DNA of 64,000 nt from the NCBI RefSeq assembly GCF_030913635.1, contig NZ_CP133188.1, positions 2,914,001-2,978,000 on the forward strand. Direction: 5' to 3'. The stretch comes from Sedimentibacter sp. MB35-C1. GTDB taxonomy: Bacteria; Bacillota; Clostridia; Tissierellales; Sedimentibacteraceae. Under the pieces are notes generated by a model, which was not told the DNA's origin, did no database searches, and saw only the letters and a program-made list of their open reading frames with translations. A program made the translations under genes and the position numbers. Shown here in pieces: positions 12,884 through 37,759 of the stretch (the stretch's first letter is position 1; the number at the start of each line of letters is the position of its first letter).

Positions 12884-13969
12884 TTAATTATTTCTCTTGT
12901 TTAGGAATGAAGGAATCTGGAAATCAAACGGATTTTCTTTCTGCGCAGCATCCCCGCCGTTATTACTATTTTTGTTATCACTCCTAGAAATTTTGACTGT
13001 TTCGCTTTCTTTTTCTGTTCCACCAAAACCGGTTGCAATGACAGTTATCTTAACAGCATCTCCTACAGTTTCATCTATATTCGCTCCGAATATGATGTTT
13101 GCTTCAGGATCTGCAGCTTCCTCAATAAGCTTCGCTGCTTCGTTAACCTCATGTATACCCATATTAACTCCGCCTGTAATGTTTAGCAGCACTCCTCTTG
13201 CACCATTTATAGAAGTTTCAAGCAACGGACTTTGTATTGCCTGTTTAACTGCGTTAAGTGCTCTGTTTTCACCTGTTGCCATTCCTATTCCCATATGTGC
13301 AAGGCCCTGGCCCGACATTATGGTTTCAACATCAGCAAAATCCAGGTTCATAATTGCAGGTATGGCAATCAAATCTGAAATACCTTGAATACCTTGTCTC
13401 AAAACATCATCAGCCAGCGAAAATGCTTCAAGCATAGTTGTTTTTTTATCCGATATTTCTAGAAGTTTATCATTGGGAATAACAACCAATGTATCTATGC
13501 TGTCTTTTAATTTCTTAAGTCCCATTTCGGCGTTTTTCATTCTGTTTCTACCTTCAAATATGAAAGGCTTTGTAACAACAGCAACTGTCAGTATTCCCAT
13601 TTGCTTTGCAATTCCGGCTATGTAAGGTGCAGCTCCGGTTCCTGTTCCGCCTCCCATTCCTGCAGTTATAAAAACCATGTCCGCGCCTTCCACAAGCTCG
13701 GCAATGTCCTGTTTATTTTCCTCTGCAGCTTTTTCACCAATTTCCGGCTTGGAACCTGCCCCCAAACCACTGGTTAATTTTTCGCCTATCTGAAATTTTA
13801 TTTCTGCCTTTGATGTATATAATGCCTGCTTGTCCGTATTTACACTTATAAAAGTAACACCCCTCACACCGGCATCTATCATTCTATTTACAGCATTGTT
13901 TCCGCCGCCGCCTACACCTATAACTTTAATATTCGCGAGTCTTTCTGTTGGTTCTTCAAACTGAAACAT
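12884..13969 (-). CDS. ftsZ: Cell division GTPase FtsZ
   Basis: A 361-residue tubulin homologue. The G-box is [12 protein letters not shown] near residues 103-114, and the N-terminal nucleotide motif is [13 protein letters not shown] near 17-29. The C-terminus [10 protein letters not shown] is the conserved peptide that binds FtsA, SepF or ZapA partners. It polymerises into the Z-ring. It has an AGGAGGT ribosome site, an extended -10 promoter and its own terminator. ftsA, its usual upstream neighbour, is absent here. Confidence 0.97.
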
Positions 13970-14063: not shown

Positions 14064-14408
14064 TTACTCATTTTTATTATACTTTTCTAGTATAAAATTA
14101 ACTAATGCTCTCATATTTTGGTAAATATTGTTGCCAAATGCAAATACTGCGGCTAAATAAATAGGAAGCCCTAACTGTTCTCCCACATATGCAAGCAGCA
14201 AACCAAACACTAGATCCGCCAATAAATGCGTTAAACTTTTAACGATTGTTAACTCGCCCTTTGTGTTTAGATTTAGCAAATTAAAAATTGTATTCAAAAT
14301 TGCCAAGACAGTTATTGAAATATAAACTGCATACTCAGGACTGTATACTAAATTTAAATTCAATCCAACCAGCAGGCCAAGAATAACTCCTGTAACTACA
14401 TAAATCAT
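14064..14408 (-). CDS. sbp: Small basic protein Sbp (DUF1290), membrane
   Basis: A 114-residue membrane protein with about three hydrophobic segments. VVTGVILGLLVGLNLNLVYS at the start and the LLADLVFGLLLAYVGEQLGLPIYLAAVFAFGNNIYQN stretch (positions ~66-101) match the YlxX/Sbp family. In Bacillus it lies between the YlxW gene and ftsA. Its function is unknown. Here it is the last gene of the murE-to-sbp transcript, followed directly by ftsZ. Confidence 0.85.
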   Translation of the reverse strand: MIYVVTGVILGLLVGLNLNLVYSPEYAVYISITVLAILNTIFNLLNLNTKGELTIVKSLTHLLADLVFGLLLAYVGEQLGLPIYLAAVFAFGNNIYQNMRALVNFILEKYNKNE

Positions 14409-14423
14409 TTAATCAACCCCTTA

Positions 14424-15137
14424 TCATTCAGCACTAACCGCATATTTAACTTCATAATTTGTTTCATTGTTTCTTTTATATTTTGGAATCGGAACGTTGT
14501 AGCTCATTATAACATCCACCGCCATTCCATATGTGTTTTTCAGATCATAAGCATATGTTCCCTCTTCTGTTACGGCCGTATACAAGTCTTCCATATCTCC
14601 AACGGCACTTATAAAGAATGGGGCTGATACTCCTTCTCCGTTAACTTTTATAAGTGGTCCAGCACACACTACTTCCGATATGTTAATAATCCTTTTGCTA
14701 TTTACAGCTATAGCCTCAGCACCGGCAGCTTTTAAGTCGTTCAGCAAAACTGTAATATCTACATCATGAACAATCTTTTGCATTATATCCAAACTATCGT
14801 CTTCAATTGTACTGTCTGAGATCTTAAAATATATTCCCGGTCCTCTAACGTCAGTAAATCCATTATAAAATTTCAATTCTTCAATTTGTGAGCTTATACT
14901 TATTATATCGTCTAAATAGCTTTTATTTTCATATCCGTAGATGAATTTTTTTTCATTAATTATTTCTTCTTTGAGGCCTTCAACTACGTTTCTTACATCA
15001 TTAATATTATTTTCGTATTCATTTAAATCCCTAACTAAATATATTGTGTTTTCATTTACATTTGCATCTACCCCTGAAGCGATAAAAAAAGCTGCAACAA
15101 AAGATAATAATGCAATAATATAGGTATTGACTTTAAT
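14424..15137 (-). CDS. DUF881 (YlxW/YlxX-type) division-cluster protein, apparent ATT start
   Basis: The frame stays open upstream of the in-frame TTG at 14876 and encodes a complete DUF881 protein: membrane segment TYIIALLSFVAAFFIASGV, a coiled-coil stretch, then the DUF881 core. Between the in-frame stop at 15153-15155 and 14876 there is no ATG, GTG, TTG or CTG. The best start is ATT at 15135-15137, 8 bases after GGAGG and one base after the stop of the upstream DUF881 gene. That gives 237 residues, close to the 242 of its neighbour. Starting at the TTG would delete the membrane anchor. The function is not known. The family sits in dcw clusters beside divIB. Confidence 0.8.
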   Translation of the reverse strand: MKVNTYIIALLSFVAAFFIASGVDANVNENTIYLVRDLNEYENNINDVRNVVEGLKEEIINEKKFIYGYENKSYLDDIISISSQIEELKFYNGFTDVRGPGIYFKISDSTIEDDSLDIMQKIVHDVDITVLLNDLKAAGAEAIAVNSKRIINISEVVCAGPLIKVNGEGVSAPFFISAVGDMEDLYTAVTEEGTYAYDLKNTYGMAVDVIMSYNVPIPKYKRNNETNYEVKYAVSAE

Positions 15138-15138
15138 A

Positions 15139-15867
15139 TCAATCTCCTCCGTTCATAGTATCTTCTTCGCCTGTCACAGGTTCTGCATACTTAAATTCTT
15201 TTTCTCCATCAAATCCATTAATAAATATTTCAGGAGAGCTCTCTATTTCAACAGTATATCCTATATTGTTCAACTGACTCACTATTCCTCCGACAAAATT
15301 CAATGAAGCCTCTATTGTGTTCGAAAAACCTATCGCTTTTATTTCAAGAGGCAAAACCATGGCAACACCGTTGACATTTATATGGTCAAGAACCGGAACT
15401 ATTTCTGTGTAGTTTGTATATCTTTGCCCGTTTATTGATATTGCTTCCACTCCTGCATTGTTTAAGTAGCTTATGAGTGCAAGTATGTACTGATGGCTCA
15501 TTGCAATGCTGTATGGTGAGTCTGGATTTGAATCTATGGTTATAATAGTTCCTTCTCCTTTTACATCATAATAGCCTGACAGTATTTTCTGAGTTTCAAG
15601 TTCCTCATTTAGTCTTTGTATTTCAGCTTCTCTTGATTCAAAAAGCTCCTTATTTTCTTCAGACGTTCTTTTAAGTTCATCCAATTCCTCTCTAAGTTGA
15701 TTCTTCTCAACAGAGAGTCTTGCAAGCTCGTTATTAAGGTTTGACGCTTTCTCTTGAAGAGTGTCACCACCCAATACACTGTTTGTTGTTTGGATCTGCG
15801 TCATTAAAATAATTCCCAACACTATACTGATTACAAATAACATTATTTTTTGCCACAATTTACTCAT
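15139..15867 (-). CDS. DUF881 division-cluster protein
   Basis: A 242-residue protein: N-terminal membrane segment (IMLFVISIVLGIILMTQI, residues ~8-25), a coiled coil (~40-95), and the extracytoplasmic DUF881 core (~97-225) with NAGVEAISINGQRYTN. This is the YlxW/YlxX group of Bacillus division clusters. Its function is unknown. Its start overlaps the end of ftsQ by 8 bp, and its end carries the GGAGG that serves the second DUF881 gene. Confidence 0.85.
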   Translation of the reverse strand: MSKLWQKIMLFVISIVLGIILMTQIQTTNSVLGGDTLQEKASNLNNELARLSVEKNQLREELDELKRTSEENKELFESREAEIQRLNEELETQKILSGYYDVKGEGTIITIDSNPDSPYSIAMSHQYILALISYLNNAGVEAISINGQRYTNYTEIVPVLDHINVNGVAMVLPLEIKAIGFSNTIEASLNFVGGIVSQLNNIGYTVEIESSPEIFINGFDGEKEFKYAEPVTGEEDTMNGGD

Positions 15868-16663
15868 TATTTTCCTCCGCTTTAAAGTCCTCTATATAAA
15901 CCGGACTATCCCCCTTTGTAAAATCAATCAACCCGTTTGATACAACAAGGTTGTTGTTTAATCTCTCATTTATTATTTTCATTGCAAATACAACTTGATA
16001 TTTAATGTCTTCATTCAGCTTTATTTTTACACATGTTCCGTATTCCGTTTTTAGCAAAAAACTGTCATCTGAATCAACAGATAATCCTTTTACTGCGTCG
16101 GTTCCGAATTCTTCATTTATATAATCAGCCGCACGGAGTATTTCACTTGCGTCATAAACTCCTGCGAATTGAATAGTTTCCCCTATATTGTATAATACAT
16201 CTGTCAAACTTTCAATAGTTATTAATTCGTTTTTTTCCGGTCCGTTTCTAAGTACTATTCCCTCATCGTCAATTACTATGTACTCGTTATTAAAATGCAC
16301 CTGATACTTCTCCTGCCTCTCAGAAACCTTAATAAGTATTTTGTCTGGTAGCTCATAAATAACTCTTACACTTTTCACATAGGTTTCTCTGCTGATAATC
16401 TCACGTATCTCGCTTCTTTCAACGCTGAAAATCTTCTGCCCTTTTTTTATCTGTGACTTGTCCACTATATAATCACTGTCATAACTCGAATTACCAGATA
16501 CGCTTATTTCTGCAACATTAAAGTAATCAGTTTCAAAGTACACGTAATAAACACAAAAAATAACAACTACAGCAGCCGTTATAAAAGCTGCTGTACTGAC
16601 AAATAGCTTTCTAAATTTTCTTCTTTTTTTCTTTCGTTTTTTAGTTATTTTTTCATTTGCCAT
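15860..16663 (-). CDS. ftsQ: Cell division protein FtsQ/DivIB
   Basis: 267 residues: a Lys/Arg-rich cytoplasmic tail (TKKRKKKRRKFRK), one membrane segment (~22-44), a POTRA domain (FNVAEISVSGNSSYDSDYIV onward), and the FtsQ/DivIB beta domain. It is a single-pass bitopic divisome protein that links FtsL and DivIC/FtsB to septal synthesis. I start at the ATG at 16663. A TTG 10 codons upstream adds nothing recognisable. Confidence 0.9.
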   Translation of the reverse strand: MANEKITKKRKKKRRKFRKLFVSTAAFITAAVVVIFCVYYVYFETDYFNVAEISVSGNSSYDSDYIVDKSQIKKGQKIFSVERSEIREIISRETYVKSVRVIYELPDKILIKVSERQEKYQVHFNNEYIVIDDEGIVLRNGPEKNELITIESLTDVLYNIGETIQFAGVYDASEILRAADYINEEFGTDAVKGLSVDSDDSFLLKTEYGTCVKIKLNEDIKYQVVFAMKIINERLNNNLVVSNGLIDFTKGDSPVYIEDFKAEENNE

Positions 16664-16724
16664 TACAGTACCTATATTATATTTATACAACAACGCTCAC
16701 ACGCCGTTATTTTTCATCTTTTAT

Positions 16725-32067: not shown

Positions 32068-33090
32068 CTAAAATTGTTTTAAGAATCTAACATCATTTTC
32101 GAACAATAACCTTATGTTCGGGATTCCATACTTAACCATTGTAACACGGTCTATTCCCATGCCGAATGCATAACCTGAATATACCTCCGGATCAATTCCG
32201 CAGTTTCTGAGAACATTAGGGTGAACCATACCGCATCCTAAAAGTTCCATACTCCATCCTGTTCCATGGCAAGCAGGGCATCCCTTGCCCATGCACAAGT
32301 GACACGATACGTCAACTTCTGCGCTTGGTTCAGTAAACGGAAAATTATGCGGACGAAAACGAGTTTCCACTTTGCTACCGAATAACTCCTTAACAAACTG
32401 ATCAATTGAATCTTTTAAATTTGCAAGGGTTACGCCTTTATCAACCACAAGGCATTCCATCTGATGGAACATTGGAGAATGTGTATCATCAACATCATCA
32501 AATCTAAATGTTCTTCCGGTGCACACCATTCTTATAGGCAGTTTCCCCTCTTTCATCACTCTGATTTGAACAGGAGATGTTTGTGTTCTCAGGACAAGAT
32601 CATCCGAGATATAAAATGTATCTGATTTGTCTCTTGATGGATGGTCATATGGAGCATTCAAATCGTCAAAATTATGCCCTACTGTTTCAATTTCAGGGCC
32701 GCTTATAACGTCGTATCCCATGCGCATAAATACACTCTCCAATTCTTCCTTAACTTGAATTAAAGGATGTCTTCGGCCAATCTCAGGAACCTTGCCCGGA
32801 AATGTAATATCCAGCATTTCTGATTTAATCTTTTTTTGCTGATCCTTTTCACTTACATATTCCTTAATCGTTTTTATTTCCTCTTCTATAATTGAACGGA
32901 CCTCATTTGCCAGTTTTCCCATTTCAGGTCTTTCCTCTTTTGACAAGTTTCCCATTGATCTCAATATTAATGTCAGGTCTCCCTTTTTACCGAGATACTT
33001 AACTCGTATTTTTTCAATATCTGCATTGTCTTTGCATTCTTTAAGTCTGTTCACCGCTTCTGTTTTTAACTTTAAAAGCTGCTCTTTCAT
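32068..33090 (-). CDS. pheS: Phenylalanyl-tRNA synthetase alpha subunit
   Basis: A 340-residue class II synthetase: N-terminal coiled-coil arm, motif 2 region RTQTSPVQIR and VCTGRTFRFDDVDDTHSPMF, and the end GFAFGMGIDR-type motif (GYAFGMGIDRVTM). A CHLCMGKGCPACHGTGW segment has paired Cys residues, common in Firmicute PheS. I start at the ATG at 33090, 5 bases after AAAGGAG; a GTG at 33105 overlaps that site. It is controlled by the T-box upstream. Confidence 0.96.
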   Translation of the reverse strand: MKEQLLKLKTEAVNRLKECKDNADIEKIRVKYLGKKGDLTLILRSMGNLSKEERPEMGKLANEVRSIIEEEIKTIKEYVSEKDQQKKIKSEMLDITFPGKVPEIGRRHPLIQVKEELESVFMRMGYDVISGPEIETVGHNFDDLNAPYDHPSRDKSDTFYISDDLVLRTQTSPVQIRVMKEGKLPIRMVCTGRTFRFDDVDDTHSPMFHQMECLVVDKGVTLANLKDSIDQFVKELFGSKVETRFRPHNFPFTEPSAEVDVSCHLCMGKGCPACHGTGWSMELLGCGMVHPNVLRNCGIDPEVYSGYAFGMGIDRVTMVKYGIPNIRLLFENDVRFLKQF

Positions 33091-33134
33091 ACATGCTCCT
33101 TTCACTAATAAATATTTTTATAATATCAAATAAA

Positions 33135-37071: not shown

Positions 37072-37581
37072 TTATTTTTTGGGTGACAAAAACATAATCA
37101 TGTTTCTGCCCTCAACTAATGGTTGCTTATCTATAATAGAATGTTCTTTTGTAATCTCTGCAAACTGCATAAGCACTTCCCTGCCCGCATCCATATGACC
37201 GAGCTCTCTTCCTCGGAAACGAATAACAACCTTTACCCTGTCTCCATCTTCAAGGAATTTGCATGCATTTTTTGCTTTAACGCCCAAATCATGCTCCTCA
37301 ATATTCGGAGTCATTCTTATCTCTTTGACGTTTATAATCTTTTGTTTCTTTTTAGATTCTTTTTCTTTTTTAGCCTGAGCGTACTTATACTTTCCGTAAT
37401 TCATAATTCTGCATACCGGCGGTTTCGCGGTAGGCGATACATTAACCAAATCCAATTTTTTGCTTTCAGCAATTTTCAAAGCCTCTTTAGTGCTGATAAT
37501 GCCCAGCTGACTTCCATCAGAGTCAATGACTCTTACTTCCTTTTCACGAATTTGCTCGTTGATTTGAAGTTCTTTTATAAT
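37072..37581 (-). CDS. infC: Translation initiation factor IF-3, ATT start
   Basis: The N-terminal IF-3 domain requires the frame upstream of the TTG at 37479: INEQIREKEVRVIDSDG and GIISTKEALKIAESKKLDL are encoded in 37480-37560. The start is ATT at 37579-37581, 5 bases after GGAGG, giving 169 residues, normal for IF-3. IF-3 discriminates against non-standard start codons, and an ATT start on infC is the classic basis of its autoregulation in E. coli. The C-terminal domain binds the 30S subunit. The L20-type leader and promoter lie upstream. Confidence 0.95.
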   Translation of the reverse strand: MIKELQINEQIREKEVRVIDSDGSQLGIISTKEALKIAESKKLDLVNVSPTAKPPVCRIMNYGKYKYAQAKKEKESKKKQKIINVKEIRMTPNIEEHDLGVKAKNACKFLEDGDRVKVVIRFRGRELGHMDAGREVLMQFAEITKEHSIIDKQPLVEGRNMIMFLSPKK

Positions 37582-37759
37582 TTACACCTCCAATGATTTC
37601 TCTTGTCTTCCTTATAATGTATATGCAAAATAAAAAAGACAGCCAAATTACCGCTATCTTTAAACAATACAAAATTATTGCATTAATTTATTAACCCTAC
37701 TAACAGTCTAACAGCAATTAAACGCCGTAAGGTGAGAAGCGGTCACTTCTTCTTGAACT
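37582..37759 (-). promoter_or_regulatory. L20-type leader with attenuator upstream of infC
   Basis: A ~178-base minus-strand leader between the promoter and infC. It contains a GTGACCGCTTCTCAC segment and an attenuator: stem AAGATAGC/GCTGTCTT (37632-37660) followed by TTTTTATTTT. This layout matches Firmicute L20 leaders, in which L20 binding favours termination before infC. The Rfam family match should be checked with a covariance model. Confidence 0.75.

Follow-up and report, generated by a model that had tools for sequence, protein, structure and literature searches.

The window, that is, the whole 64,000-nucleotide stretch of DNA that was analysed, comprises bases 2914001-2978000 of the 3.62-Mb single-contig genome of Sedimentibacter sp. 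MB35-C1. It bears on its minus strand the gene order ftsQ-DUF881-DUF881-DUF1290-ftsZ, as for ylxX-like genes, and on the same strand ORFs which, from their translations, we take to be murG-like and murA-like. YlxW and YlxX are themselves DUF881 proteins. The features of the locus, in window coordinates, are as follows.

15860..16693, minus strand: ftsQ/divIB-like gene (POTRA_1), from the ORF list and a profile match
15139..15867, minus strand: first DUF881 gene (ylxW-like), ATG start, from the ORF list and a profile match
15153..15155, minus strand: in-frame TGA bounding the open frame of the second DUF881 gene, from the sequence
15146..15150, minus strand: Shine-Dalgarno GGAGG, 8 nt 5' of the ATT, from the sequence
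15139..15141, minus strand: TGA that ends the first DUF881 gene, 1 nt 5' of the ATT, from the sequence
14424..15137, minus strand: second DUF881 gene (ylxX-like), 237 aa, ATT start, from ORF reading and PF05949
15135..15137, minus strand: ATT start codon, from the codons at the homologous position in the genus
15063..15119, minus strand: codons for residues 7-25, the 19-residue stretch of highest hydrophobicity and presumed membrane anchor, from hydropathy
14874..14876, minus strand: TTG that a caller limited to NTG starts would choose, giving a 150-aa form
14064..14408, minus strand: DUF1290 (small basic protein) gene, ATG start, from the ORF list and a profile match
12884..13969, minus strand: ftsZ, from the ORF list and a profile match

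Elsewhere on the minus strand lies a T-box leader (Rfam RF00230; 33153-33369), just upstream of ORF 32068-33105, which reads as pheS.

The initial annotation had claimed that the frame of the second DUF881 gene is open as far as the TTG at 14876 without containing any ATG, GTG, TTG or CTG, and that the only plausible start is an ATT which follows GGAGG at 8 nt and the upstream stop at 1 nt. Reading the frame codon by codon bears out both the absence of these four codons between the bounding TGA and that TTG, which is codon 88, and the geometry of the site: GGAGG, 8 nt, then ATT AAA, the first DUF881 gene ending between the Shine-Dalgarno (SD) sequence and the ATT. The initial observation is confirmed. 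The SD duplex energy is -10.3 kcal/mol for the ATT, against -0.9 for the TTG at 14874-14876. The 16S 3'-tail motif that matches the GGAGG is present at six places in the genome.

The 237-aa protein read from the ATT matches Pfam PF05949 (DUF881) over residues 84-228 (E 1.9e-33; 115.8 bits against a cut-off of 25). Its predicted structure, a model of modest confidence (mean pLDDT 69.5), has one helix at residues 2-20 and a long one at 29-68, followed by a C-terminal domain which matches 3gmg (Rv1825) with E-values of 2.7e-8 by fold and 1.6e-7 by sequence. As far as such a modest model goes, the protein therefore has the layout of a DUF881/YlxX-like protein, with an N-terminal anchor, a long helix and a 3gmg-like C-terminal fold.

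The comparison covered 25 Sedimentibacter genomes, including that of the window; many are fragmented assemblies. A search of 100 relatives recovered the second DUF881 gene from 22 of the 24 congeners, making 23 orthologues with the window's own, and a family-wide search returned the identical set; the two congeners without a match are represented by assemblies that are 70% and 82% complete. Start codons were read at the codon homologous to the ATT, the anchor codon being set by hand for four loci (L005, L014, L025 and L026). This codon is ATA in 13 orthologues, ATT in seven, ATC in two and TTG in one, and in none is it ATG. The codon after it is AAA or AAG in 22 of the 23 and AGA in the remaining one. 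A strong SD sequence is kept in fixed register, with G at -12 and -9 in every orthologue and duplex energies at the homologous codon of -8.3 to -11.7 kcal/mol. The nearest congener, with 89% protein identity, also has ATT; S. saalensis DSM 13558 has ATA, preceded by no NTG although its frame stays open for 162 nt. The single TTG, likewise accompanied by GGAGG, is directly preceded by an in-frame TAA, so that the start in that congener is fixed at exactly the homologous codon; since it is TTG there, an AUH codon is not indispensable. The initial annotation had proposed aligning homologues to see whether the ATT and the anchor are conserved, and had named a clear ATG elsewhere in homologues, together with a sequence error or frameshift here, as grounds for giving up the reading. 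The alignment yields ATH (ATT, ATA or ATC) in 22 of 23 orthologues and a hydrophobic N-terminal segment in all of them, while no ATG is found at the homologous codon.

Neighbouring genes at the same loci served as controls. In 20 of 22 loci the aligned codon of the first DUF881 gene is ATG, and in the other two ATG stands directly before it, one further locus being cut off; for DUF1290 the start is ATG in 20 of 22 and TTG in two, one further locus falling short of the gene. If the third position of the homologous codon had drifted freely, with G at 13.2%, the chance of encountering no ATG would be 0.868^22 = 0.044, a figure that assumes independent genomes, which these are not. Avoidance of ATG at the homologous codon is thus moderately supported by these codon counts. 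The second DUF881 gene combines a strong SD sequence at fixed spacing with conservation across relatives, as would be expected of a gene with an AUH start, and comparison of the orthologous sequences establishes both the position and the conservation of the putative start site.

It might be supposed that the second DUF881 protein is made only by ribosomes finishing the first DUF881 gene, whether by termination-reinitiation or as a fusion formed through readthrough or frameshifting. The stop of the first gene does lie only 1 nt before the ATT in the window, and some genomes have that stop in the reading frame of the second gene. However, in the 22 loci where the upstream stop could be located, stop and start are separated by anything between 1 and 67 nt and stand in each of the three possible frame relations, which no one readthrough or frameshift event could explain; the retention of a strong SD sequence also speaks against this account. 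We consider this explanation unlikely. Translational coupling to the first DUF881 gene could nevertheless operate in addition to an AUH start. In E. coli, reinitiation likewise depends on initiator tRNA, and an excess of IF3 reduces it (PMC2268962).

A second alternative is that in part of the genus the gene starts at some other NTG (ATG, GTG or TTG), namely a GTG at -9, an ATG or a TTG between -15 and -42, or an ATG at +15, the ATH being an ordinary isoleucine codon or lying outside the gene. Candidates are indeed available: an upstream in-frame NTG is present in 17 of the 22 ATH genomes and ATG at +15, five codons downstream, in four of them (L004, L007, L008 and L009), and plain isoleucine codons would likewise drift among ATH without ever reaching ATG. 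Against this, five of the 22 (L001, L003, L009, L010 and L014), the window among them, have no upstream in-frame ATG, GTG or TTG at all, and in the congener with TTG the start is the homologous codon itself. The upstream NTGs have SD energies of only 0 to -6.1 kcal/mol, weaker than at the homologous codon, and the ATG at +15 has -0.7, so that no NTG offers a better start than the AUH codon. The GTG at -9, found in 11 ATH genomes (L011, L013 and L016-L024), overlaps and forms part of the SD stretch, and an upstream start in these genomes appears the less likely reading from the sequence. The invariance of G at -12 and -9 in all 23 orthologues also speaks against an alternative NTG start. Taken together, we rate the use of another NTG as quite improbable.

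The 150-aa form beginning at TTG 14874-14876 is what an NTG-limited caller produces, and the initial annotation had warned that it would lose the membrane anchor, as proves to be the case. The TTG lacks an SD sequence and the codon aligned with it is TTG in only six of the 23 orthologues; for both reasons this form was rejected. The hydrophobic segment that it would discard is retained throughout, the most hydrophobic 19-residue stretch starting at residue 4 to 8 (within residues 4-26) in 23 of 23 orthologues and exceeding the best stretch beyond residue 60 in every one, and use of an anchorless protein is accordingly very improbable. Although ATG and ATT are one base apart, a sequencing error or a decaying gene is a negligible prospect, and error was rejected because 22 of the 23 genomes, including the nearest congener, carry ATH at the homologous codon, in a protein whose mean column identity is 69%.

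The comparison was extended to 47 orthologues outside the genus but within the order, two of which belong to the same family; seven came directly from the search of relatives, and 40 more were drawn from among its matches. From the translations, an NTG is available upstream of the hydrophobic segment in all 47, the best by SD energy being ATG in 43, TTG in three and GTG in one. In three of these loci the SD of an ATH codon outscores that of the best NTG, and in seven it equals it, so the SD score alone cannot name the start. What sets the genus apart from the outgroup is, on these sequences, the presence or absence of a usable NTG and not the SD score. The two genera of the same family have ATG AAA and ATG GTA AAA where Sedimentibacter has ATH AAA. 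On a protein tree in which nine of 22 inner branches are firmly supported there are at least seven changes among ATH codons, with one congener at TTG and none at ATG. The simplest history would be that AUG gave way to AUH once, at the base of the genus, and that the codon then drifted within the AUH set.

AUH codons are weak start codons, best known from infC, the gene of IF3, which is the factor that polices start codons. The window contains this gene too:

37072..37578, minus strand: infC (IF3), with an ATA start at 37576-37578 and GGAGG at 37587-37591, from the sequence

The layout GGAGG-N8-ATH-AAA is identical at infC and at the second DUF881 gene, in the same register. An NTG-limited caller would reduce the window's infC product to a 135-aa form. 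Among the 25 genomes of the genus, infC was found in 23, with ATA in 13 and ATT in 10 (L048 being read as ATT); GGAGG-N8-ATH-AAR is present in 22 of these, and one has a spacing of N10. Upstream in-frame NTGs accompany infC in at least two loci, among the 20 of 23 listed; one of the two is that with the N10 spacing.

How widely such starts are used was surveyed in 406 ORFs of at least 100 codons in 464 kb, about 13% of the window's genome, with any second codon allowed. A site qualified if it lay within the first 40 codons with an SD energy of -8.5 or better, if no NTG preceded it, and if none of the NTGs in the first 90 codons reached an SD energy of -6; by design, the survey is blind to AUH starts in ORFs where an NTG reaches that value within 90 codons. 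Of the 406 ORFs, 66 had no NTG of this strength, and in only two of these did a strong SD occur without a preceding NTG, namely in the second DUF881 gene and infC. General use of AUH starts was thus not seen in the sampled 464 kb, and the earlier assertion that ATT starts are rare outside infC holds. An earlier version of the survey had raised five ATH flags, three of which were dropped for upstream NTGs; other codon sets were flagged as well, and every flag that lacked an NTG upstream marked a neighbouring codon in either the second DUF881 gene or infC. Nor was GGAGG-N6-9-ATH-AAA by itself enriched genome-wide, with 70 hits against 111 for the reversed control; the occurrences, 72 when counted in the retrieved DNA, were then filtered by reading frame. 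There were 27 motif occurrences with an ORF of at least 40 codons, and five of these had no upstream NTG: infC, the second DUF881 gene, a gene for an ECF sigma factor (the family being read from the protein) and two ORFs, L075 and L100, which at 44 codons were too short and were set aside. A 156-codon ORF (L116) was set aside as ambiguous, having NTGs upstream at -24 and -15.

The ECF sigma gene is the only other gene of useful length among the motif hits that resembles one with an ATH start. It is present in two copies in the window's genome (at 2211779 and 2215421) and in one copy in each of two congeners, all four having GGAGG or GGAGA and then an apparent start ATT AAA ATA. One of the congener copies (L137) has an ATG further upstream within the open frame, and in weaker homologues an NTG lies around the aligned start in 20 of the 21 listed.

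From these comparisons we regard it as very likely that the second DUF881 gene starts at AUU, after a change from AUG to AUH across Sedimentibacter and subsequent drift among AUA, AUU and AUC, with a weak, IF3-linked yield as the most likely effect. The strong SD sequence would place the ribosome on the AUU, which would be read by initiator tRNA, so that the protein should begin with methionine and not isoleucine. By analogy with infC, the AUH codon is probably read weakly and rejected by IF3; for that reason the amount of the second DUF881 protein would most likely be held well below that of the paralogue encoded just upstream, and would follow IF3 activity. We further infer co-transcription of the two genes, and that the weak start helps to fix the proportion in which the two division-site proteins are made. 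There are several precedents. In S. aureus, ribosome profiling revealed starts with extended SDs at infC (AUA), cvfC1 (AUU) and ccpN (AUA); the non-canonical starts of cvfC1, ccpN and citZ gave about 10% of the output of AUG in poor medium, and that of ccpN up to 30% in rich medium (PMC13009471). The GTC start of Streptomyces sigR is repressed by IF3, and in E. coli the AUH start of infC serves IF3 autoregulation (both PMC5472188). An AUU start is usable by Clostridium species (PMC11040787), and Borrelia pncA is another AUU-start gene, truncated in databases (PMC13398362). YlxW and YlxX of C. difficile localise to midcell (PMC12548448).

Callers limited to ATG, GTG and TTG cut this protein and drop its anchor, or shift its start, in many species of the genus. 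Should IF3 indeed read the site, there would be a direct link from the translation machinery to the cell-division cluster. It is tempting, though distinctly speculative, to suggest that IF3 reads a small gene set in Sedimentibacter, consisting of infC and the second DUF881 gene, joined in three genomes by the ECF sigma gene, and that yield from the AUH codon follows the supply of free IF3 and 30S subunits, tuning a division-site protein to translational capacity. More generally, the case offers a comparative route to AUH starts, namely to look for a homologous position where ATG stands outside a clade and ATT, ATA and ATC replace one another within it.

Conserved AUH starts are already known, but a genus-wide one in a division cluster appears to be new: a literature search, largely without subscription journals, found nothing joining either Sedimentibacter or ylxX/ylxW with the start codon. 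The closest parallel is infC (AUU, AUA or AUC; autoregulated), which has the AUH start and strong SD in an identical layout in the window; infC, however, encodes the sensor itself, whereas the second DUF881 gene, under putative IF3 control, specifies a membrane protein and lies between ftsQ and ftsZ. In S. aureus, ccpN (AUA, as also in B. subtilis) and cvfC1 (AUU) resemble it in having a conserved AUH start with an extended SD (PMC13009471), but they are other genes in another lineage, whose starts were mapped and measured, while those of Sedimentibacter are read from sequence. Streptomyces sigR likewise has a genus-wide non-canonical start and a strong ribosome-binding site, with no evidence of such a start in other actinobacterial genera (PMC5472188); it differs in using GTC or GTT rather than ATH, and in encoding a sigma factor. 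E. coli pcnB, an unrelated gene, is reported to have an AUU start outside infC that limits expression. Finally, the YlxX/YlxW genes encoded downstream of ftsQ elsewhere share both the gene order and the protein family, and differ from those of Sedimentibacter in that an NTG start is available in each of the outgroup orthologues examined.
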